Positions 50-28,464 of a DNA stretch of 36,660 bases are shown piece after piece; positions within the stretch are counted from its first letter, which is position 1; each line of letters starts with the position of its first letter. The translations under genes were made by a program, and so were the position numbers. The stretch is taken from the NCBI GenBank assembly GCA_018713115.1, contig DVFS01000052.1, positions 1 through 36,660 of the forward strand, written 5' to 3'. Below the pieces are notes generated by a model that was not told the origin of the DNA, did not search any database, and saw nothing but the letters and a program-made list of their open reading frames with translations. Origin of the DNA: Candidatus Galligastranaerophilus faecipullorum (GTDB lineage Bacteria > Cyanobacteriota > Vampirovibrionia > Gastranaerophilales > Gastranaerophilaceae).

Positions 50-69
50 AGTCCCGCGAGGGACTTTTT
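50..69 (+). terminator. Rho-independent terminator after tRNA-fMet
   Basis: A perfect 6-bp stem, AGTCCC (50-55) with GGGACT (60-65), is closed by the GNRA-type tetraloop GCGA and followed by TTTT. It sits 7 bases after the tRNA CCA. Its T tract reaches the stop codon of the convergent ADP-ribosyltransferase gene at 68-70. The other strand lacks a T tract, so it should act mainly on the plus-strand transcript. Confidence 0.85.
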
Positions 70-1204
70 AGTTGGATACTTTTGCTTTAATGTACCATTG
101 TGTGCCGCCGGGATGTTCTTTTGGCTTTATTTCTTGAATTTTCAGTTTAGCATTTTTTTGTAAAAGTACTTCAAGTTCCTGTCCGGTATCGGCAACGGGC
201 AGGGTTTCAAGGAATAGACCTCTGGTACCCGGTTCAGGGCTTAGTATCCAATTTACGGTATTTCGTCCCAGAAATTTATCTGATAACGATGTTGACATAA
301 ATGCCTTTTGTTCAACTTCCGGATTTTTGCTCAGCAGAGTTTCTATGGTTTCTTTAAGGTTATCTTCCTTTTGTGCTTTTTCCAGTATTTCAGCCAGATT
401 TAATGTCTGACCGTCAGAATTTTTAACTTTTTTCAAAATATCAAGACTTTCACCCCTGTATAACGTTATGGGTGCGGATATTACATGGGGCTCAATAGCT
501 TGTGATATGGCATTAATTACTTTTTGTGATTCCGGAGTTATTTCGCCGCTTATAAGGCTTTTGTTAATTTCTCTAAATCCTGCCGATTTATAATTTAGAA
601 TAGCGCGCACTTGCTCTTTTTCGGGCATTTTAATCATACTGTCTGCGGCAATATCCCATATTGCCGGATTTGCATCCGTGATTTTTTGGAATTCTTTTTG
701 AAAATCAAGACTTTGTGTTGACCAGTCCGATTTTAATCTTGTTGTCAGCATAATTGCTCTGTCCGGATTGTTATTCCAGAAGGCAAGATGTTTTTTGTTA
801 TTCCTGCAAGCAAGTTCTGTAATATCTTCTATTGTTGAGTCGGCAGCTAAACTCTCCAGCACAAAGTCGCTTGCCCCGTATTTGTTATCTATTTCACTTA
901 TTTCCGATGTGCTGAATTGATCAAAGTCTTTAAAATATTTATTATCCGCCTGTTTTGCGTAATTGTGGGAGTCAAAGTATTTTGCAAGTGTTTCTTTAAA
1001 ATCTTCTGCCGTTACTTCCAAATTGCCTTTTTGCTTTGCTTTTTTAACAATCACGTTTTTTTGCGAAGCAATGCTGTCTAATCCGAGAAAGATTTTTTCA
1101 CTTCCGTCTTTAAGCGGTTTTGATGTTATGTTTATATCCGAAGCTTTTAAAAGTGCTTTTTTACCTTTATTTAATAATGATTGTGCAATTTTATTTATAT
1201 ACAT
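68..1204 (-). CDS. ADP-ribosyltransferase exoenzyme-like protein (R-S-E class)
   Basis: This predicted mono-ADP-ribosyltransferase has 378 residues. The C-terminal half carries the full catalytic signature of the C3/ExoS/VIP2-like fold (ADPrib_exo_Tox family). It has an upstream helix with GFREINKSL (209-217), Arg250 in LYRGES, the STS motif in FMSTSLS (304-306) and the bi-glutamate turn GQELEVLL with E343 and E345. The spacing from STS to ExE and the following basic beta strand fit the family. The N-terminal 190 residues are unrecognised; no signal peptide or membrane segment is visible. I place the start at the ATG at 1204, because AGGAG lies 8 bases upstream of it; a TTG six bases earlier would be only 2 bases from that site. 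In the family, NAD-derived ADP-ribose is moved onto host or rival proteins; the target here is unknown. No immunity gene is obvious beside it. Confidence 0.82.
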   Translation of the reverse strand: MYINKIAQSLLNKGKKALLKASDINITSKPLKDGSEKIFLGLDSIASQKNVIVKKAKQKGNLEVTAEDFKETLAKYFDSHNYAKQADNKYFKDFDQFSTSEISEIDNKYGASDFVLESLAADSTIEDITELACRNNKKHLAFWNNNPDRAIMLTTRLKSDWSTQSLDFQKEFQKITDANPAIWDIAADSMIKMPEKEQVRAILNYKSAGFREINKSLISGEITPESQKVINAISQAIEPHVISAPITLYRGESLDILKKVKNSDGQTLNLAEILEKAQKEDNLKETIETLLSKNPEVEQKAFMSTSLSDKFLGRNTVNWILSPEPGTRGLFLETLPVADTGQELEVLLQKNAKLKIQEIKPKEHPGGTQWYIKAKVSN

Positions 1205-1224
1205 CTGCAAAACTCCTCATATTA

Positions 1225-3169: not shown

Positions 3170-3484
3170 ATGAAAATTTTACCGGTTAACTCTGCAAAAA
3201 CAACAGGTTTTAAGAAAAACCCCCGGACGCTGTCTGCTCCTTTTAGTAATGAAGGCAGTTTAACAAATATACAAGCATACGGTTTAACCTGTTTATTAAC
3301 CGCAATTCCGGGTGCCGAATTTGCCAAAAAGGGTTTTAAAGATGCAAGTGCAGCAGGAAAAGCCCGAAAAATTGCAGGCGGCGCCGGAATTATGCTTGGA
3401 CTGGCAGTCCCCATTTTTGCCGTTTTAAAGTCGTTAAATATTTTGCGCAGACCGGCGGGCGAAAAAAACAATCCTGATAATTAA
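3170..3484 (+). CDS. Small hydrophobic protein linked to the AAA+ ATPase
   Basis: This 104-residue protein starts with MKILPVN, like other proteins of this window. I chose the ATG at 3170, four bases after the ATPase stop; an in-frame TTG at 3122 lies inside the ATPase gene. Two hydrophobic stretches are visible, about 36-52 (AYGLTCLLTAIPGAEF) and 69-89 (AGGAGIMLGLAVPIFAV), with a basic loop between them, so it is probably membrane-associated. Its 3' end overlaps the stop of the convergent gene by 4 bases. No known family is recognised. The tight spacing suggests co-translation and a shared role with the ATPase, perhaps as membrane partner, as the 4748-5452 protein may be for the second ATPase. 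Confidence 0.6.
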   Translation: MKILPVNSAKTTGFKKNPRTLSAPFSNEGSLTNIQAYGLTCLLTAIPGAEFAKKGFKDASAAGKARKIAGGAGIMLGLAVPIFAVLKSLNILRRPAGEKNNPDN

Positions 3485-4776
3485 ATCTTTTTAAGATAAT
3501 TTTCTATATCACATCTTAAAAGGTATGCATCTCTTTCTTTGCCTTGCATTTCGCAAATCATGGCAAGAGTTTCTTTCAGGCGTACAACTTCTCTGTAGTC
3601 GCACTTTCTTAAAGCTTTTTCAGCGAGTTCCGTGTACCAGTATTTATGTATTTCAAGCCGCTGCCAATCCATATTTGCTATAAACGGGTCAAGGTGGAGT
3701 CTCCAATCTCTCTTCTGTCCCAGTGTTAAATCATCTATATTCAGCTTTATGGGGATTCTCCTTTTATTTGTTAAAAATGCACTGTTGATACCCGAGGAAT
3801 TCAAAGTTTCAAAAACTATTGTCAATGGTTCTTTGTCTTCCGATAATGAATACAATAACGCTTTCATCTCGGCAATTGCCTCATTTGAAACTTCCGAATC
3901 TTTCAAAATACGGGAGAAGTCTTTAATAAATAAAACCGTTCTTCTGCCGTTTTTCTCATAATTTTCCCGGGCATATTGCAGTTCCGTATTTAATCTGTAC
4001 AGCGCATCCTCTTCGTCTTTTGGAAGTTCAAAAGAAACGGTACGGGCTGCAACTTCGTCCTTTAACCAGTTAAAAATCTCATCTCTTCTTTTTTGTTCTG
4101 CGCCTTCAAGCATAATTACAGTCGGAATATGTTCCGAATTGGTTTTTACCGGATTAAGAAAATTTGTTTCTAATCTGTCTTTAATTTTAGCGTTTAGCTG
4201 TTCTTTTCTAAGCCGTTCATTTCTTTCCGCCTCTTTTTTCTTTAATTGTGCCTCAAGCTGTTTTCGCTCTTCGTTCGCCTTTTTCTCTGCCAATTGTAAT
4301 TCTCTTAGCTTTTGATTATTAAGATCAATCATGGCGAGCCTTACTTTTCTTAAAATTCTTTCCGTTTCTTTTTCGGGAGCTGTTGTAAAAATATATTTAA
4401 AGCTGTTCATTTGCTTTGCAAGTTTGCCCATATGTTCGTTTTTTAAATCTGTTTCCCAGTTATCTTTACCTAAATATTTTTTTGCATACGCCATTACCTC
4501 CGACGAATAGTATTCAGATGACCCAAATGAAGCCGCAAGTGCGTACGGCAGCCCTGCATTAAGAAGTGCTTCACCTTCACCTTTACCTTGTCTATAATTT
4601 AAAAGTCCTTTGAGTATAATTGTGTTCTCATCGTCATCTGTTTTATGAAGGCGCTTTATAAATTCATCATGTCCTTGATTGGAAGTACCAAAGGAAAACC
4701 TCTGATTAAAAGATTTTTTTGTTAATGAATATTTATCTGTATTGTAATTATTTAAGTATTGCGTTGTTATTTTCAA
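3481..4776 (-). CDS. Catalytically degenerate AAA-like protein with coiled coil
   Basis: The protein has 431 residues and starts with MKI, with a FSFG motif at 27-30. An N-terminal helical domain (40-130) leads into a charged coiled coil (about 138-200) and an ATPase-like C-terminal domain. Position by position this follows the intact paralogue at 5452-6747, but the P-loop is replaced by EGAEQKRRD (224-232), with no GxxGxGK. Walker B reads VLFIKDFSR (281-289), with Lys-Asp in place of Asp-Glu, and sensor 1 reads VFETLNSSG. The segment NKRRIPIKLNI still matches RGPKRMPIKVCI of the paralogue. Nucleotide hydrolysis is therefore not expected; a structural or regulatory partner in a mixed ring is a reasonable guess. 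It is the last gene of a three-gene operon and overlaps the upstream gene by 29 bases. Confidence 0.7.
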   Translation of the reverse strand: MKITTQYLNNYNTDKYSLTKKSFNQRFSFGTSNQGHDEFIKRLHKTDDDENTIILKGLLNYRQGKGEGEALLNAGLPYALAASFGSSEYYSSEVMAYAKKYLGKDNWETDLKNEHMGKLAKQMNSFKYIFTTAPEKETERILRKVRLAMIDLNNQKLRELQLAEKKANEERKQLEAQLKKKEAERNERLRKEQLNAKIKDRLETNFLNPVKTNSEHIPTVIMLEGAEQKRRDEIFNWLKDEVAARTVSFELPKDEEDALYRLNTELQYARENYEKNGRRTVLFIKDFSRILKDSEVSNEAIAEMKALLYSLSEDKEPLTIVFETLNSSGINSAFLTNKRRIPIKLNIDDLTLGQKRDWRLHLDPFIANMDWQRLEIHKYWYTELAEKALRKCDYREVVRLKETLAMICEMQGKERDAYLLRCDIENYLKKI

Positions 4777-5452
4777 TATTTTTTCCCTTTGTCTGTTTTT
4801 TTGCGCAAAATGCTGCGGCTCCGCCGATAATTATACCGGCAAATATGCCTGCAGCGACAGCTTTTTTTGTGAAAGCAGCGCTGTATTTTGCTACTTTGCT
4901 CGTTAGATTTTCCGCATATTCCCTTAAGGGTTTTTCAACCAAATCCGTATATTTCCCCTTTAAACTTATGTTTAATTTATTTAAATGCGATTCCTGGCAT
5001 TCTTTTGCTTTAATTGTCCTGTTTAAACTTTCGTTTAATTCGGCAAGTTTTTTTGGGGAGTTTTCATTGGCTATCATATTTTCAGCATAACTTATAGAGT
5101 TTTTAAGTGTTTTTAATAACTCTTCACCGCCCTGTATATTATCGGTCATTTTTTTTACATCCGAATTTTCGTTAAATTTTTTTAACAACGCTGCTTTATA
5201 CTCTTTTATTTGTTTATCGGTGTTTTTATTTTTTATACTTTTATTTAATTGCCCGATTGTAAATCCGCCGATACCGCCTGCGGCGGTTGTTCCTGCGGGA
5301 ATCAATAAATCTCTGGCGGCAAATTGTTTTTTATTTGATTGTACGGTTTGTTCATTTGTTGCGACATTATTCCGCGCTGAAACATTGTTTTGATTACACA
5401 CAGGCGTATAGGGAATATTAAACTGCGAAAAAGGGTTATTTATTCCTGTCAT
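4748..5452 (-). CDS. Membrane/coiled-coil protein of the AAA operon
   Basis: This 234-residue protein belongs to no family I recognise. An Asn/Gln-rich N-terminus (1-45) precedes a Gly/Ala-rich hydrophobic stretch (about 49-68, LLIPAGTTAAGGIGGFTIG). A long charged helical region (70-190) follows, then a clear transmembrane helix near 197-215 (VAAGIFAGIIIGGAAAFCA) and a short polar tail. Its ATG overlaps the stop codon of the upstream ATPase (TAATG), and its own 3' end overlaps the degenerate paralogue by 29 bases, so all three genes are translationally coupled. A membrane anchor or adaptor for the ATPase pair is an inference from this arrangement. Confidence 0.65.
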   Translation of the reverse strand: MTGINNPFSQFNIPYTPVCNQNNVSARNNVATNEQTVQSNKKQFAARDLLIPAGTTAAGGIGGFTIGQLNKSIKNKNTDKQIKEYKAALLKKFNENSDVKKMTDNIQGGEELLKTLKNSISYAENMIANENSPKKLAELNESLNRTIKAKECQESHLNKLNISLKGKYTDLVEKPLREYAENLTSKVAKYSAAFTKKAVAAGIFAGIIIGGAAAFCAKKQTKGKNIENNNAILK

Positions 5453-6747
5453 TATTCATCATCCCCCACTAAAAGCTCTCTCTCCTCTTTGTATTTCATT
5501 ATATCTTCCCTATCAATACCGGGAGTTTCCCTTTTTATGTAATAAATTAAATCTTCCTGAGTTACGGTATCTAAGTTTTCAATACATTCATTACAAATAC
5601 TTTCAATTTGAGAATTGTTATAAGCTCTTTCCGGTAGTACTGAACATAATACCTGCGCAAGTTCATCAAAATTAATTCGGGTTAAATCTGCATTTTTGCA
5701 GTCTTTTAAGTAATGTTCAAACACCAGTGCGGCATTGTTTTCATCAGGCGGATCAATACATACTTTTATGGGCATTCTTTTTGGACCGCGTATTGCTGAT
5801 GGAATTTTTAAAGGATTATTTGTTGTTGCAAATACGGTGCAATGATAATCCTCGGAACAAGTTTCCAAAAATCTTTTTAATTTTGCATTAACACAAGAGT
5901 CTTCATAGGCAAATCTGTCGATTTCATCAACAAGAATAATTGTTCTTTTCCCCGTTTCCAAGAAATTTTGCTGCGCAACTTTTGCATTGGATAAGAGATT
6001 GTCATAAAAGCTCTTTTCTCTGTCGCTTTTGGTTCTTGCCGTTCTTGATGACTTTGCTTCTGCAAAATTGCAATTCGCACTATTTGCAAATGCTTTTGCA
6101 AAGCTTGTTTTCCCGTTTCCAACGGGGCCGAAAAATAATATTGAATTTGGAATTTCAACATTCTGTCCGGCTTTTTCCAGGGGCAAAAGATTTATAAAGC
6201 TATCGGTTAAAATAAATTTTTCTTTTTCATAACCTGCAATAGAATCAAAACCTTTGTGCCTGCTTTTGTTGTTTGCAATAAGTTCGGTTTTTTCTTGCTT
6301 TATACGGGTTGCAATCAAGAGTGCTTTTTTAGCTTCTTCCAATTGCTCTTCGTCTGCATTATTTTTCTTTAACAGTTCGCATTTTTCTTTAAGCAATTCC
6401 ACGACCTTGTTTTGTGTTTCAAGGGAAATCTGCTGCGCTCTCAAAAAACCGCTGATTTTATCGTCAGCCTCTTTTTGTATTCTTTCTCTTTTCTTCTTCT
6501 TAAAAAAGCCGGTTACTTCTTCCTTTTTCTGCTTGCAGGCGTCCTTAATGTTTTTTAAGCTTATTTCAAATTTTTTAGCAATATCTTCATCTTCGTCGGC
6601 TTTGCTGTTTGCATAGTCGAAATTGTCACCAGTATCAAAGTCCTTAAGGGAAACGCCTCTAAAACTGACACAATAAAGTGCATTTTTATTTTTCTGTAAA
6701 ATATGACTATTTTTTGGACTGCAATTGCTTATGGAATAAATTTTCAT
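5452..6747 (-). CDS. AAA+ ATPase with intact catalytic motifs
   Basis: The 431-residue protein begins MKIYSIS and carries VSFRG at 27-31. A charged coiled-coil region (50-160) is followed by GFDSIAGYE (166-174) and a standard AAA+ core. The core has Walker A GPVGNGKT (207-214), Walker B IILVDEIDR (270-278), sensor 1 FATTNNP (306-312) and arginine-finger candidates R320 and R324 in IRGPKRMP. The lid contains NNSQIESICNECIE. All catalytic residues are present, unlike its paralogue two genes downstream. It is the first gene of the operon. A weak AAGG lies 9 bases before the ATG and falls within an inverted repeat. Members of this fold remodel or unfold proteins; the substrate cannot be read from the sequence. 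Confidence 0.8.
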   Translation of the reverse strand: MKIYSISNCSPKNSHILQKNKNALYCVSFRGVSLKDFDTGDNFDYANSKADEDEDIAKKFEISLKNIKDACKQKKEEVTGFFKKKKRERIQKEADDKISGFLRAQQISLETQNKVVELLKEKCELLKKNNADEEQLEEAKKALLIATRIKQEKTELIANNKSRHKGFDSIAGYEKEKFILTDSFINLLPLEKAGQNVEIPNSILFFGPVGNGKTSFAKAFANSANCNFAEAKSSRTARTKSDREKSFYDNLLSNAKVAQQNFLETGKRTIILVDEIDRFAYEDSCVNAKLKRFLETCSEDYHCTVFATTNNPLKIPSAIRGPKRMPIKVCIDPPDENNAALVFEHYLKDCKNADLTRINFDELAQVLCSVLPERAYNNSQIESICNECIENLDTVTQEDLIYYIKRETPGIDREDIMKYKEERELLVGDDE

Positions 6748-9460: not shown

Positions 9461-12400
9461 ATGAAAGTGAATCCTGTTTGTTTAAGTGCCATAAGCTCTA
9501 AAAGGCCAAGTAATGCGGTAAATGCACCTGTTTTTGGCGGCAGGGACAGTTTTGAACGTTCAAATAAGCATGTTCTGACTGCAGATGGCAGGACATATCC
9601 CGAACTTGATAAATGGGTTGAAGATTACCTTAAAATGCAGGGTGCATCGCTCGGGCAGATTGCTTTGCTTAAGAAGCTCTTTGAGGTTTCAACGGGCGAC
9701 AAGGACGCTTTTGCAAAAACATTGCTTGAATACAAAGGCTACGAGCCTGAGGAAATAGTAAAAGACCTCAGGGAGCACGGTCTTGAGATTCTTTCGCTGG
9801 ATGAAGAAAAACTGAAAACTTATAATAAAAATCTTGAAAATTTTAAAAATATTGAGCTTCCCGAAAGTGTGGATTTGGATTATTTCCCGCTTGTCCCGCT
9901 TCTTGATGAAGAGCAGATTAAAAGAGTCGCGCCATATTGTGATGACTATGTTTTTGACGAGTCTTTTTTTGATATATTAAATGGTGATGAAAAATATTTT
10001 AAAAGACTTAAATATGCCCGCGAATTTAAAGATAACTTTTGCGATATTGCAAGAACAAACCTGAGCGGTATTGATTTCAGGGAAATTATGCACTCCGATA
10101 TTGATGATGAGACCTTGAAAGACCGCTTTAAAATATTAACAGATTATGCAAGCCTAATGTCAAAATCTTCATTTACGGGTTTTTATGCGTCATCCGGCAG
10201 TATAAAAAACCTTGCTCTTGCATCTGAAAAAAAGTGGGAAACCGCTTTGTATTTTATAAATTTGAAAGAGAATATGAGTGAAAAAATTAATATAGTGTTT
10301 GATATGCTTGACGAGCTTTCCGATTTAGATGAAGAACAGCTTAAAAAGGCTCGCAGGTATGTTGATTTTGAAAGGTCCGGGTCATCTTACATAAATTCTT
10401 TAGATATGTTGAACATTGCAAAGCTTGATGATAAAAAGTTTGAGCGCGCACTTGATTATATGGAAAGAAACAAAGAGCACAAAATAAGTTCTCTCGGTTA
10501 TTCTTCCCCTCTTTTTACCGACAGTATAATAAAACTTACGGAACTTGATGAGAAAACAGCTGACTTTGTTTTTGACAACTGCGCTTTTTTGGATTGGGAG
10601 GAAAAGCAGGCATATGTTGATTTATACACAATGCCCGATATGCTTGATTTGCCGCTTGTAAAGCGAATAGATGCCGCTTCGCACTGTGACGGCATAAGAG
10701 ATAAATTTGAGAAACTCGGTATATCTGACCCTTATTTTGATAAAAAAGCAGCCGCCCTGCAGGCTTCGCTTATGGGAGCGGATGTCGCGCTTGATGTGCC
10801 TAAGGCCAACATACAAAAACTTTTTCATACCTTTCTTGTAAATATTCCCCAAAAAGACGGCATAAAAGGCGAATACGACCCGGCTTTGACGCAGGCTGAG
10901 AATGTGCTTGTAAATTCGGACTTTTTAATAAAATCTTTTGTTAAAAGGGGCTTGCCGCTTTGTTATTCAAGAAACGAGTATATAGAAAATCTGGATGAAA
11001 TAACTTCAAAACTGGATAAAAAACAAAAGGATTTAATTTTTTCCAAACTTGGTATAATTCCCGTTTACAAAGACAAGAAACTAAGCGGATATAACGGACT
11101 TTTGCTTCTAAAAAATCTAAATCTGAATGACAGCGTTCAAAAAAAAGTGTATGACATTACTTATAAATTCCTTTATTCAAACAGGGTTGAAACACAAAAT
11201 GAAGAATTAAATGAGGTTTTAAATTCTATAATAGCAGCATTTCCGGAATTTATAAATTCAATAGGCAAACCGCAGAACCCTACACATCGATATTCAAACG
11301 ATATTCACACGCTTGCGGTTTTAAATAACTGCCTTATGAACCCTATGTACAGGGAGTTAAGTTCTTCTTCGAAAACGGCAATAAAACTAATGGCGCTTTT
11401 TCACGACCTTGGCAAGGCAGACGGTGTTGTCGATAAGGGACACCAGAATACAAGCGCATATTATGTAAAATCAATTCTTGAAAAGCTTAATATAGGTGAA
11501 GGAATATCAGACAGGGTTTTTGAACTGGTTAAAAACCATCACTGGTTTGAAGATTATAATACCGGTGCCGTGCCGCCTGATACTCCCGCATTTATGTTTA
11601 GAAGACCCGAAGATTTCAAGGCTGCGCAGATTTTTGCGCGTGCAGACCTTCTGGGAGTGGGTGCTTCAATGTTTTATGAATATACAGATAATTTGAACCC
11701 CGAAAATATGAGCCGCATTCAGGAGAAAATAGACAATCTCTACAAAACCGGAAATGCAGTATATACAACAAATGTCATTGTACCCTCGAAAATACCTCTG
11801 GAAAAATCATCGGAGGGCAGAGAGTACCGCGTGATAAACTTTACAAAAATTCCTAATGACAAAGACCTTTATGAATACGGTTTTGCAAAAGGAACCAAAA
11901 AAGACGATATAAGGCTTCTTGTGCATATGATAGGCGATGAAGTCGACCTCAACAGAATGAGGTACCTCTCGGATATCAATAATGCAGGGGTATTGAGCGA
12001 AACGCTCATAAGTCTTGATAAGCAAAGAACGTACTGTAACAGGTGCTACGGTGTAGTATTGTCTAATATGCCATATAACGTCATACAAATGTCCGATGAA
12101 AATATCGGCTCAGGCACAAAAAAAGATTTTAAATACGCAATAAGGGCGGCACAAAACGGATTGCACAGAGATGAATTTAAAAAACTTCTGCTCGGGGAGC
12201 TTGGTCTTGAAGGCAAAGTGAGCGACGATGAGTATGCGAAATTTTATCTTAAATATTTGTCAAATAAAAATATGCTCTCGCAATTCAGTGCGGACAGGGA
12301 GTATAAAATCGGCGCCTATGCCGTTTCTTCAGATGTGCTCAGAGCTGCTGCGGCAAGGGTTATGGACGGTTTTATAGAAAGAAGTGCAGAAGCCGACACG

Positions 12401-12538
12401 CATAGTGAATTTGTTGCATACAACCCCAAAATTCGTGCAGTAATTGCCAAAGAAAACAGTCTTGATGATACTCCGCAATATCTCAAAGACTACGCTTTTG
12501 AACACAATCTTCCGATATTTTTAACCGGAAAACCTTAA
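9461..12538 (+). CDS. Large helical-repeat protein with HD phosphohydrolase domain
   Basis: The protein has 1025 residues. The N-terminus MKVNPVCL with VFGG at 24-27 fits the motif shared by several proteins here. Residues 100-430 are helical, with loosely repeated units such as LDEEQLKKARRYVDF, LDDKKFERALDYME and LDEKTADFVFDN. Residues about 605-745 form an HD domain: H616 (DIHTLAVL), H648-D649 in FHDLGK, H661, H693/H694 in KNHHW, and D729 in ARADLLG. That set fits metal-dependent hydrolysis of a phosphate ester or nucleotide. The last 280 residues are unassigned. No ribosome site is visible at the ATG; the preceding 125 bases hold only AT-rich DNA. A role in nucleotide signalling or scaffolding is possible but not shown. 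No transmembrane segment is seen. Confidence 0.7.
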   Translation: MKVNPVCLSAISSKRPSNAVNAPVFGGRDSFERSNKHVLTADGRTYPELDKWVEDYLKMQGASLGQIALLKKLFEVSTGDKDAFAKTLLEYKGYEPEEIVKDLREHGLEILSLDEEKLKTYNKNLENFKNIELPESVDLDYFPLVPLLDEEQIKRVAPYCDDYVFDESFFDILNGDEKYFKRLKYAREFKDNFCDIARTNLSGIDFREIMHSDIDDETLKDRFKILTDYASLMSKSSFTGFYASSGSIKNLALASEKKWETALYFINLKENMSEKINIVFDMLDELSDLDEEQLKKARRYVDFERSGSSYINSLDMLNIAKLDDKKFERALDYMERNKEHKISSLGYSSPLFTDSIIKLTELDEKTADFVFDNCAFLDWEEKQAYVDLYTMPDMLDLPLVKRIDAASHCDGIRDKFEKLGISDPYFDKKAAALQASLMGADVALDVPKANIQKLFHTFLVNIPQKDGIKGEYDPALTQAENVLVNSDFLIKSFVKRGLPLCYSRNEYIENLDEITSKLDKKQKDLIFSKLGIIPVYKDKKLSGYNGLLLLKNLNLNDSVQKKVYDITYKFLYSNRVETQNEELNEVLNSIIAAFPEFINSIGKPQNPTHRYSNDIHTLAVLNNCLMNPMYRELSSSSKTAIKLMALFHDLGKADGVVDKGHQNTSAYYVKSILEKLNIGEGISDRVFELVKNHHWFEDYNTGAVPPDTPAFMFRRPEDFKAAQIFARADLLGVGASMFYEYTDNLNPENMSRIQEKIDNLYKTGNAVYTTNVIVPSKIPLEKSSEGREYRVINFTKIPNDKDLYEYGFAKGTKKDDIRLLVHMIGDEVDLNRMRYLSDINNAGVLSETLISLDKQRTYCNRCYGVVLSNMPYNVIQMSDENIGSGTKKDFKYAIRAAQNGLHRDEFKKLLLGELGLEGKVSDDEYAKFYLKYLSNKNMLSQFSADREYKIGAYAVSSDVLRAAAARVMDGFIERSAEADTHSEFVAYNPKIRAVIAKENSLDDTPQYLKDYAFEHNLPIFLTGKP

Positions 12539-25404: not shown

Positions 25405-28400
25405 TCAGCGTTTTACTGTTTCACCTTTTTTAGTTTTATCTATTATTTCAAGAATTTCTTTTTCAAGGTTGTTCAGTTTAGCTAAATCATCCCTGCCAAG
25501 AGTATGTTTCCAGGCTTCAAGTTCTTTTTTAAATTCGTCGGAACTTATAATGCACTCGCCCGTACCCACTTTGTCTTTGTATTTTTTACCGAATTCATCA
25601 ACAAAGCCGCCGTAAGCTTCGACAATTTTATCCGACGCTAATTCTGCGTTTTTAAGCATTATTTCAATATCGGAGTCTATTCTTTGCTTTAAATTTTCAG
25701 ATATGTCACTTGTGCCGAGAGGCCCCCTGCTGATTGAAATTCTGCCTGTATTTGGACCCATGCCCATTTTTTCGACAGCAAGTTTTGCCATATTTGTTGC
25801 CATTGACATATCCTGTGTAATGCCCCAGCTGCCGTCCATATTGTAGAATTTCTTTTCACTTGCATGTCCGCCAAAGTCGCATACAAGTTCGGAGAATACT
25901 TTTTCAAAGCTCATCTCGTCATTTTCCGAGTCTTTAGGGAACATTGCACCGCCGAAACTGCCTCTGGGGTCAAGTGTTATGAAATTTACCTGATCGGGCA
26001 GGTGCCAGGGTTTTTCTTCTTTTTTGGCTATTTCATACATAACTTCAAGTGTTATTGCATGTCCGCATTCATGTTTTGCAACAAGCTCGTCATCATGTTT
26101 TGCGCGCGCCCTTGATGAAACCCTGCCCGTTGTTGTCTGCAGAAATGCTTCCGTAAAGTCGGATTTGTCTATGGCATCTTTTCCTCTTTCGCGCGAGATG
26201 TCATCGGCTTTTTCAAGCAGGTAAATTAAATCTACGACACTAAAGTAGCTTGTAGTTTCGGAGATATTTTTTATTATTTCCGCTTTTTCATTTTCATTTT
26301 GTGCCGCTATTTTAAGACCTTTTTTGTCTATGTAATAATTCAGGATATCGCTCCTGTCTTTTACATCCTGAGGGGAGTAGATAACGATTTTATCCAGAAA
26401 TTTGTACGGTTTCATGATATTTTCGTCAAGATAATCGGGATAGTTGGTGGAGCCTACAATGATAAGGTTTATGTTTTCATTTTTCCTTACGTTTTCCATT
26501 TCCGATAAAAGCTGTGAGAACGCTTTTTGTTCATAAATGGAAGAAATGCCGTACAGCGGGTTTGAGCCGAAGTTGTCGAAGTTTTCAATATATATCATTG
26601 CGGTTTTGTTTTTATTTGCTTCCGCCTGTGTTTTTGCCGTATTTATAAGTTTTTTGATTTTAAGTTCGGAAAGATTGGCGTTTTGCGCAAGTGCGTCAAT
26701 GTCTTTAAGTGCAAAGTCGCGCGCGTTAATGGTAATCATGGGAATGCCTGCTTCCCCTGCGATTGCTTCCGCTGTATGCCTTCTGCCGCCGCCATAAGAG
26801 GAGCCGTTATCAAGAAATGTTGTATAACCTCTTGTGTAGCCTTTTCTGCCCATAAGAATCTGATTTACGATACTTTGCGCCTCGGCTTTTGTCATAGGGT
26901 TGCCTACGATATCGTCAAGTTTTTTGCCCGTGTCAAAAATAACCCTGAACTCATCCTGCGATTCTTCGCTCTTTTTGATATCGGATGTTTGTTTTTCGTA
27001 AGATTCCAAATCTTCAAGTGTTATTTCTTTTTTATCCAGATAATGAGAAGAAACTTTTTTCATATATTTAAGCGCTTTTTCGGGGTAATAGCCTTCCTGA
27101 TTGTTTGTAATGTCAATAGCGCGCTCTATGGCATCCTGTGTAAAGTCTTTTTTGATTTGCGACTTAATATATTCTCTTCCCGTATCGGCACCGAGTATTT
27201 TTTTTGTGTCAGAGGCATTAACCATAGGGATGGAAAGGGTGTTGTAATGCTCAAGATAAGGTTTCATAGTAGAATGGGGCTGGGTATTGCCGTAATACAC
27301 ATCCCTGTTTGAAATGAGCACCATTCTTATGTTTGTCGGCGCACCTTTTTTGCCCTTGTTTTCAATAAGTTTCAGCTCATTTTCATCAAGCATAATTGAT
27401 TCGCGCTTTTCTGCAAGAGTGTTCGCCTTCAGGATATCGGCAAAATTGATAATAAAAATATATGTATTGTCAGGGTCTTTTTTGGCTTCTTCCTGTGCAA
27501 ATTTTACAGTTTCAAAGATGGCTTTATCGTTAAATATTACAATTTTTGTATTTTCCGGCGTGAGAGTATTGTATTTTTGCCCCGGTTTTTTAATAAGGTT
27601 TGTAAAACTTGAAATAAGGTGATTAATTGAATCTTTGTTGTCGCCTTCATATGTTATATAAGTGTCGTTGCCGAAATCAAGATTTTTCCAGAGCTGGTCA
27701 GCTTTTTCGTCATAAAATTTCAAATGTCTTTTTTGTTTTTCAGGCTCGTCATCTATCATAATTGCTTTTTGCATTTCATATTTAAAGCTTTTCAGTTTGT
27801 TTTGCATTCTTGTATCATCAGCGCTGAATGCCGCTATAAGATAGTTTGAGTCAAGAAAAGCTTTGGTGTTGTTAATTTGCGTAGTTGCATTGTATGCAGA
27901 GTTCAATGTTGCAACGAGTTTATCGTTCATTTTCGGGCCGAGGAGCGAAGGTTTGCGCGCGCTTGAGTTTCTGATGTCATGTGCTGTTTGCTGTATTTGT
28001 TTTTTAATTATAGGCTGAACTTTTTTTCTGATTTCTTCGTTTTTAAAAATATCAAAATTGCCTATCAGTCCTTCAAAGGTTTGTGCGCTTGTATATTGTA
28101 TTTCTTCCTCGTATTTTTTTGTGCCGGCGTTTAAACTTTCCATGAATTTATACAAATCCACAAGAGTTGTGTAGAGTACATGGTCATAGGTTATCTCGGG
28201 GCTGTGAAATTTTTTTGCCGTTGCGTTGATTTCTTTCCACAGCCTGTATGCTTCGGGAGTAAAGTTCGCTTTTGCCTGTGCCAGTTTTCTCCTGTTGTTT
28301 GCTTCATAACTTCCGCCGAAATTGATGTCATAATATGCGCCGGCTGTGCCGTTTAACTGTGTCAGCGGGTGGGGGGCTGCTATATGAATTGAATTATCCG

Positions 28401-28464
28401 CTTTGTTTGTCCTAAAATGTCTTAAAGAGCTGTTATTCGCGCTCTCAACCCTTGCTATTTTCAT
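25405..28464 (-). CDS. FtsH-like M41 metalloprotease with degenerate ATPase domains
   Basis: The protein has 1019 residues. The start MKIARVES with INFGG at 47-51 fits the shared N-terminal motif. Residues about 265-470 look like a decayed AAA domain (FIINFADILK where Walker B would be, VLISNRD as sensor 1). Residues 506-780 follow the FtsH AAA module, but the P-loop is GSSYGGGRR (554-562, no Lys-Thr), Walker B is IYIENFD (624-630), and the GRFDR-like arginine finger reads YKFLDK. The peptidase domain (785-1000) is intact: HECGH (798-802), GGHASEKKFY for the GRAAE region, and D885 in the segment where FtsH has its third zinc ligand. No transmembrane helix precedes the AAA part, unlike FtsH. 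Proteolysis seems possible, ATP-driven unfolding not. The start is the ATG at 28464 with GGGG upstream. Confidence 0.8.
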   Translation of the reverse strand: MKIARVESANNSSLRHFRTNKADNSIHIAAPHPLTQLNGTAGAYYDINFGGSYEANNRRKLAQAKANFTPEAYRLWKEINATAKKFHSPEITYDHVLYTTLVDLYKFMESLNAGTKKYEEEIQYTSAQTFEGLIGNFDIFKNEEIRKKVQPIIKKQIQQTAHDIRNSSARKPSLLGPKMNDKLVATLNSAYNATTQINNTKAFLDSNYLIAAFSADDTRMQNKLKSFKYEMQKAIMIDDEPEKQKRHLKFYDEKADQLWKNLDFGNDTYITYEGDNKDSINHLISSFTNLIKKPGQKYNTLTPENTKIVIFNDKAIFETVKFAQEEAKKDPDNTYIFIINFADILKANTLAEKRESIMLDENELKLIENKGKKGAPTNIRMVLISNRDVYYGNTQPHSTMKPYLEHYNTLSIPMVNASDTKKILGADTGREYIKSQIKKDFTQDAIERAIDITNNQEGYYPEKALKYMKKVSSHYLDKKEITLEDLESYEKQTSDIKKSEESQDEFRVIFDTGKKLDDIVGNPMTKAEAQSIVNQILMGRKGYTRGYTTFLDNGSSYGGGRRHTAEAIAGEAGIPMITINARDFALKDIDALAQNANLSELKIKKLINTAKTQAEANKNKTAMIYIENFDNFGSNPLYGISSIYEQKAFSQLLSEMENVRKNENINLIIVGSTNYPDYLDENIMKPYKFLDKIVIYSPQDVKDRSDILNYYIDKKGLKIAAQNENEKAEIIKNISETTSYFSVVDLIYLLEKADDISRERGKDAIDKSDFTEAFLQTTTGRVSSRARAKHDDELVAKHECGHAITLEVMYEIAKKEEKPWHLPDQVNFITLDPRGSFGGAMFPKDSENDEMSFEKVFSELVCDFGGHASEKKFYNMDGSWGITQDMSMATNMAKLAVEKMGMGPNTGRISISRGPLGTSDISENLKQRIDSDIEIMLKNAELASDKIVEAYGGFVDEFGKKYKDKVGTGECIISSDEFKKELEAWKHTLGRDDLAKLNNLEKEILEIIDKTKKGETVKR

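Follow-up and report, generated by a model that had tools for sequence, protein, structure and literature searches.

FtsH has been described as a protease dependent on adenosine triphosphate (ATP). Here we analyse a protein of 1019 residues encoded in a stretch of 36,660 nucleotides (hereafter the window) of Candidatus Galligastranaerophilus faecipullorum, which belongs to the Gastranaerophilales, i.e. non-photosynthetic cyanobacterial relatives living in animal guts. Like FtsH, i-AAA and m-AAA proteases, it possesses an M41 domain with HExGH and the aspartate expected as third zinc ligand; unlike them, it lacks the membrane helix, the Walker lysine, the D-E pair, the arginine finger and the FVG pore loop, and carries an Hsp100-type N-terminal half. 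Its residues 55-500 match the Hsp100 proteins (ClpA/B/C, Hsp104) in the fold and order of N-domain and D1, whereas its D1 P-loop is dead and its second AAA domain is of FtsH type with a built-in M41 protease. The predicted domain order is that of an Hsp100(N+D1)-FtsH(AAA+M41) chimera, in which both motors appear dead and the protease site kept.

Each ingredient is already known, i.e. M41, Hsp100, degenerate AAA proteases (LonC) and half-dead FtsH relatives (FTSHI). Excerpts of PMC3391209 describe the bacterial LonC (MtaLonC) as a hexamer without ATPase and with six nucleotides bound, which degrades unfolded proteins and spares folded ones; like the chimera, it combines a degenerate AAA module with a kept protease site. 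LonC is a Lon Ser-Lys protease and the chimera a zinc M41 protease of unrelated fold; moreover, ATP independence was tested for LonC, whereas the chimera is known by sequence and model. Chloroplast FtsHi1, 2, 4 and 5 lack HExxH according to excerpts of PMC9020784 (see also PMC8047818). These pseudo-proteases and the chimera are FtsH relatives with one half disabled, 8xku and 8xqw being among the structural matches of our model, but they are mirror images: HExxH is lost there, whereas the chimera keeps HECGH and loses the motor. Among the literature matches listed, mostly non-subscription papers, we found neither a published M41 protein with a dead AAA domain nor an Hsp100-FtsH fusion; by these matches, the novelty lies in that fusion and in an M41 site kept with both motors dead.

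Domain architecture and motor elements

The gene lies on contig C7 of a 1.79-Mb genome (completeness 92.84%). Homologues were collected by keeping the best 80 of 117 confirmed stretches, i.e. 79 distinct loci, 73 of which were aligned with the window protein (alignment A3, 74 rows). Six loci stayed outside it: L078 and L134, which are truncated at contig ends; L066, which has either a deletion inside the gene or a break in its frame; L111, whose first ATG lies 151 codons downstream of its start; L107, which nearly duplicates L106; and L133, whose frame is broken. The AlphaFold2 model of the whole protein has a mean predicted local distance difference test score (pLDDT) of 85.1 and a predicted template modelling score (pTM) of 0.54.

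The protease part clears the PF01434 (M41) cut-off of 29.9 bits with 60.1, and the M41 fold was matched in the predicted structure too. In the equivalog model FtsH_fam of NCBIfam (TIGR01241), the chimera reaches 130.6 bits, below the cut-off of 600. The first-pass annotation had proposed an M41 protease with an intact zinc site, and H798, E799, G801, H802 and D885 are indeed each present in 74/74 rows; D885 presumably acts as a zinc ligand, as in FtsH. HExGH was found in 78 of the 79 loci, the exception being L133, whose frame stops earlier. The expected absence of membrane helices was also borne out, since no row (0/74) exceeds a hydropathy of 1.6 on the Kyte-Doolittle scale, the sole measure used. 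By these predicted features the chimera would be a soluble M41 zinc protease.

The AAA domain next to the protease gives its top scores to FtsH models and FtsH chains, and hence is not of the Hsp100 D2 type. Its P-loop, Walker B and arginine finger had been reported as lost; the 74-row alignment agrees and adds the pore loop to the losses. The Walker A position is R561 in all 74 dead rows, whereas it is a lysine in 4/4 canonical FtsH and in every cousin with a recovered P-loop (L148 and L150 yielded none). At the arginine finger, the canonical FtsH of the same genome reads RPGRFDRQ. The sensor-1 asparagine is present in 38/74 rows.

A second decayed AAA-like domain had been noticed upstream, and profile and predicted fold identify it as a dead Hsp100 D1-type domain, in which a classic Walker A occurs in 0/74 rows. 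Profile A4, built on the N-terminal half from 37 of the 74 rows, matches the N-domains of ClpC and Hsp104, and all 50 PDB matches listed for the predicted structure of this half are Hsp104 or ClpA/B/C. Some extend from model residue 8-17 onward (e.g. 9rai_d, 1ksf, 5vy9_A), with a high overall root mean square deviation. F49 of the N-terminal tail is kept in 70/74 rows. Pfam detected Clp_N weakly (2/13 members, best E 0.019) and AAA_lid_9 in 1/13 members (E 0.02) and 2/7 cousins (best 1.2e-4), so that the Hsp100 nature of this half is nearly invisible to Pfam alone and profile and fold comparison are needed. An hhalign comparison of A4 with the two Hsp100 proteins of the same genome gave a probability of 35.5, for a template of two sequences only. 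Residues 55-500 are predicted to form a Clp N-domain followed by a D1 AAA domain of Hsp100 fold, with weak signals from single-domain sequence models. The first-pass annotation was thus right about a conserved, motor-dead M41 protease that is no local pseudogene and missed the Hsp100-like half; because that half proves Hsp100-like, the picture changes from a decayed FtsH to a chimera of two machines.

Conservation, soluble cousins and order of motor loss

Open frames of 949-1051 residues were found in 73 of the 79 named loci. In the order, 121 of 374 genomes (at least 85% complete) matched at E <= 1e-33; G031, G038 and G047 account for three of the matches with live or half-dead cousins and G007 for one with a fragment, so that 117 remain by score, with further fragments among them. 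A phylum sample of 292 genomes gave 45 matches, all within the window's own family and one of them the G031 cousin. Both counts rest on match scores, two candidates having been scored in each genome, and motifs were read where these genomes overlapped the aligned set. Outside the window's family, only G041 and G046 (family f7) showed the dead form. Most of the named loci in which its closest relatives lie bear the title Candidatus Gastranaerophilales. L088 comes from a record titled Clostridiaceae bacterium; it falls inside the Gastranaerophilales clade, so this title is probably wrong.

Within the window's own genus (16 genomes), the gene is apparently whole in ten and split across two contigs in G012. 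Among the damaged orthologues, L010/L133 (G003) is broken, L029 (G007) is down to a frame of 141 residues, and L016/L066 (G010) has its middle lacking or out of frame, which is not a contig-end case.

In the 12 closest pairs listed, the dead AAA domain shows a ratio of nonsynonymous to synonymous substitution rates (dN/dS) of 0.013-0.083, lower than that of the M41 domain in 11/12 (Nei-Gojobori counts, with low numbers per domain and three pairs sharing sequences L109, L110 and L121). Purifying selection acts on the dead AAA domain. Of the 73 named dead rows, 30 entered a tree together with the window protein, 15 cousins and four FtsH. Its 31 dead sequences form one clade (support 100/100), and the Walker lysine is absent from 74/74 rows, in agreement with the earlier view that the protease's own motors are predicted not to work and are conserved as such. 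Orthologues with intact Walker motifs would have pointed to local decay; none occurs among the 74 rows, intact motifs being those of separate cousin groups. A local pseudogene is rejected for the clade by the conserved frames, the 74/74 columns, the purifying selection and the single clade.

The same order contains 17 distinct live soluble FtsH-like cousins (L022, L024, L025, L027, L028, L151-L162), which share with the chimera a soluble AAA-M41 arrangement lacking any membrane-like segment and differ from it in having intact GxPGTGKT and the Walker B D-E pair (17/17). By simple patterns, the pore loop was found in 15/17 (not L154, L159) and the arginine finger in 16/17 (not L154). L149 and L151-L162, from genera g6, g17 and g21, are live soluble FtsH-like proteins of 725-778 residues whose N-terminal part seems unlike the Hsp100 type. 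The alignment of cousins L022-L028 contains no counterpart of the Clp N-domain, which also sets them apart from the chimera, and a D1 region is common to five of its rows, i.e. live L022, L024 and L027 and half-dead L023 and L026. The latter two (family f3) keep GSGK[TS] and the zinc site, have an altered Walker B (DD, ND), and lack the arginine finger and the pore loop.

The N-terminal half of these five cousins (profile A6) matched A4 with a probability of 99.2 (E 2.4e-19) and the two Hsp100 proteins of the window's genome with 62.8 (E 7.1e-5). A PDB profile search with A6 returned no Clp chain, only two unrelated matches (E 0.87 and 1), so that the cousins' link to Hsp100 rests on the former two comparisons. 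L023 and L026 group with the dead clade (support 96/93); a topology holding all 15 cousins together was rejected only narrowly (P value of the approximately unbiased test, p-AU, 0.047). Since live and half-dead cousins also carry the D1 region, the fusion would be older than the death of the FtsH motor, with moderate confidence. The suggested order is fusion, death of D1, loss of arginine finger, pore loop and Walker B, then loss of the Walker A lysine; long branches, a root made of four FtsH of the order and the p-AU of 0.047 keep it a moderate inference.

The dead form is borne by 36 of the 40 genomes examined; in 12 it stands together with canonical FtsH and a live soluble cousin, which is missing from the other 24. 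The window's genome and four others of the genus have canonical FtsH and the dead form only; the former has just two M41 proteins, and no live soluble partner was found there.

Feature map, gene neighbourhood and other window proteins

Table 1. Features of the chimera gene, with positions in the window (residue numbers refer to the protein)
Feature	Position	Strand	Basis
Whole gene, predicted Hsp100-FtsH chimera of 1019 residues	25405..28464	(-)	Open reading frame translation; AlphaFold2 model
Disordered N-terminal tail, residues 1-54, with F-x-G motif (INFGG)	28303..28464	(-)	pLDDT < 50 at 1-51; column counts
Clp/Hsp100-type N-domain, residues about 55-240	27745..28302	(-)	Profile A4 vs ClpC/Hsp104 N-domains; structural matches
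Dead Hsp100 D1-type AAA domain, residues about 241-500	26965..27744	(-)	
Place of D1 P-loop, residues 272-284, without GxxGxGK	27613..27651	(-)	Alignment of 74
Dead FtsH-type AAA domain, residues about 512-780	26125..26931	(-)	PF00004; structural matches 3kds_E, 1iy2
Altered P-loop GSSYGGGRR, 554-562, R561 replacing the Walker A lysine	26779..26805	(-)	Alignment of 74
Rebuilt pore-loop region, 584-596, without F-V-G	26677..26715	(-)	Alignment; pLDDT < 50 at 590-592
Altered Walker B IYIENFD, 624-630	26575..26595	(-)	E627 60/74, N628 69/74
Arginine-finger stretch replaced by KPYKFLDK, 685-692	26389..26412	(-)	K685 69/74, K688 65/74
M41 zinc peptidase domain, residues about 781-1000	25465..26124	(-)	PF01434, 60.1 bits
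HECGH zinc-binding and catalytic motif, 798-802	26059..26073	(-)	H, E, G, H each 74/74
D885, expected third zinc ligand	25810..25812	(-)	74/74; aligned with D of FtsH ND[LI]

Within 8 kb at 80 loci, many of them shortened by contig ends, no neighbour family occurs at more than 16 loci except the gene itself, and a constant operon partner is rejected. Some of the families found at 10-15 loci recur in the window, e.g. ABC-2 exporter parts and a peroxiredoxin, so local synteny is partial, without a constant partner. A promoter and terminator scan gave results no better than shuffles.

N-terminal tails ending in F-x-G (SFRG, VFGG, INFGG, ISFTG) occur in several proteins of the genome; carriers include those at window positions 5452-6747 (-) and 9461-12538 (+), the chimera itself, and L034. 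Throughout the lineage, the tail might act as a tag for sorting or binding. At 3481-4776 (-), a protein of 431 residues without Pfam match has an F-x-G-like tail (RFSFGTS) and is apparently an AAA protein without P-loop lysine, possibly a second dead AAA of the window. A protein of 380 residues at 68-1210 (-) contains an ADP-ribosyltransferase exoenzyme domain (PF03496, E 3.3e-20).

Possible modes of action

Our preferred reading, to which we give a probability of about 0.55 from sequence and model, is that the N-domain and D1 of an Hsp100 unfoldase were fused to the AAA and protease domains of FtsH, and that both motors then lost their hydrolysis residues, yielding a cytosolic chamber whose ATP independence we infer by analogy. 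The M41 domains would build the usual FtsH-type hexameric ring, and the two dead AAA layers, stacked on it as an immobile collar, would keep the ring assembled and restrict access. Substrates may be recruited or located by the Clp-type N-domain together with the F-x-G tail; only unfolded or loose polypeptides would diffuse in, to be cut at HECGH without ATP as in LonC. Nucleotide may still be bound as a structural ligand, perhaps held by R561, as the six bound nucleotides of LonC would suggest.

Several points weigh against this reading. R561 varies no more than the zinc ligands do, a hint of some function, e.g. in binding nucleotide, for which our reading does not account. In 11 of the 21 g6 genomes and in G335, the dead form is accompanied by a live soluble cousin, so that mixed rings would be possible there (of the remaining ten g6 genomes, nine combine canonical FtsH with the dead form, and in G196, 85% complete, a fragment accompanies the dead form). 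The gene can be lost, as the window's own genus shows: copies in G003, G007 and G010 are broken or partial, and neither G009 (99% complete) nor G001 (83% complete) has one. The pTM of the full model leaves the relation of the two halves unfixed. Finally, a motor-less M41 ring might fail to degrade proteins, and a dead collar could block entry.

The damaged and missing copies, all from this genus, would suit a decaying pseudogene, which we hold to be very improbable given open frames of 949-1051 residues in 73/79 loci, one clade and purifying selection. It is also improbable that the AAA layer has retained ATP binding and slow hydrolysis at a site rebuilt from R561 and E627/N628: R561 is constant and E627 occurs in 60/74 rows, whereas the Walker A lysine, the Walker B D-E pair, the arginine finger and the pore loop are all lost together and the sensor-1 asparagine is kept in little more than half of the rows (38/74). 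The least unlikely alternative, though still doubtful, limits proteolysis at HECGH to e.g. one processing cut, with the dead AAA domain as scaffold or nucleotide sensor. The invariance of R561 and the low dN/dS of the dead AAA domain would fit such a role, as would the loss of the pore loop, which makes processive feeding unlikely; on the other side, nothing points to a specific substrate, and the M41 ring, if built as in FtsH, would be a degrading chamber.

Powering in trans, in which a separate live AAA+ protein would feed the chimera's protease ring through stacking or mixed rings, seems similarly unlikely. Candidates would be ClpC, ClpB, the soluble AAA+ protein at G000:C46 (507-codon frame, ISFTG tail) and, for genus g6, its live soluble cousin; no link of ClpC, ClpB or the C46 protein to the chimera was found. 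GEPGTGKS and FIDEFD are present in the C46 protein, whose tail is of the F-x-G kind as in the chimera, and the window's genome also encodes the two Hsp100 proteins, read as ClpC and ClpB by sequence rather than by a family search. Canonical, live soluble and dead M41 proteins occur side by side in 12/40 genomes, and the strictly kept dead AAA surfaces could serve for docking. Against such feeding, no neighbour gene is widely conserved, the window's own genome lacks the live soluble cousin, as do the other 24 dead-bearing genomes examined outside these 12, a partner would be kept apart from the protease by the fused dead layers, and the arginine finger for assisting a live neighbour's ATP hydrolysis is lost. 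More speculatively, the dead collar of mixed ancestry might make a passive M41 chamber into which other AAA+ proteins plug, motor and protease being exchangeable as in ClpC/ClpP.

With the chimera, nature provides a way to ask whether an M41 ring is able to break down proteins in the absence of ATP, and what an AAA ring does when it is no motor. As live, half-dead and dead forms exist within one bacterial order, the order of motor loss is open to study. If ATP-free, the chimera would stand to M41 as LonC does to Lon, and would mirror plant FTSHI; sequence and model suggest that it may be an energy-free shredder of unfolded proteins in gut relatives of cyanobacteria.
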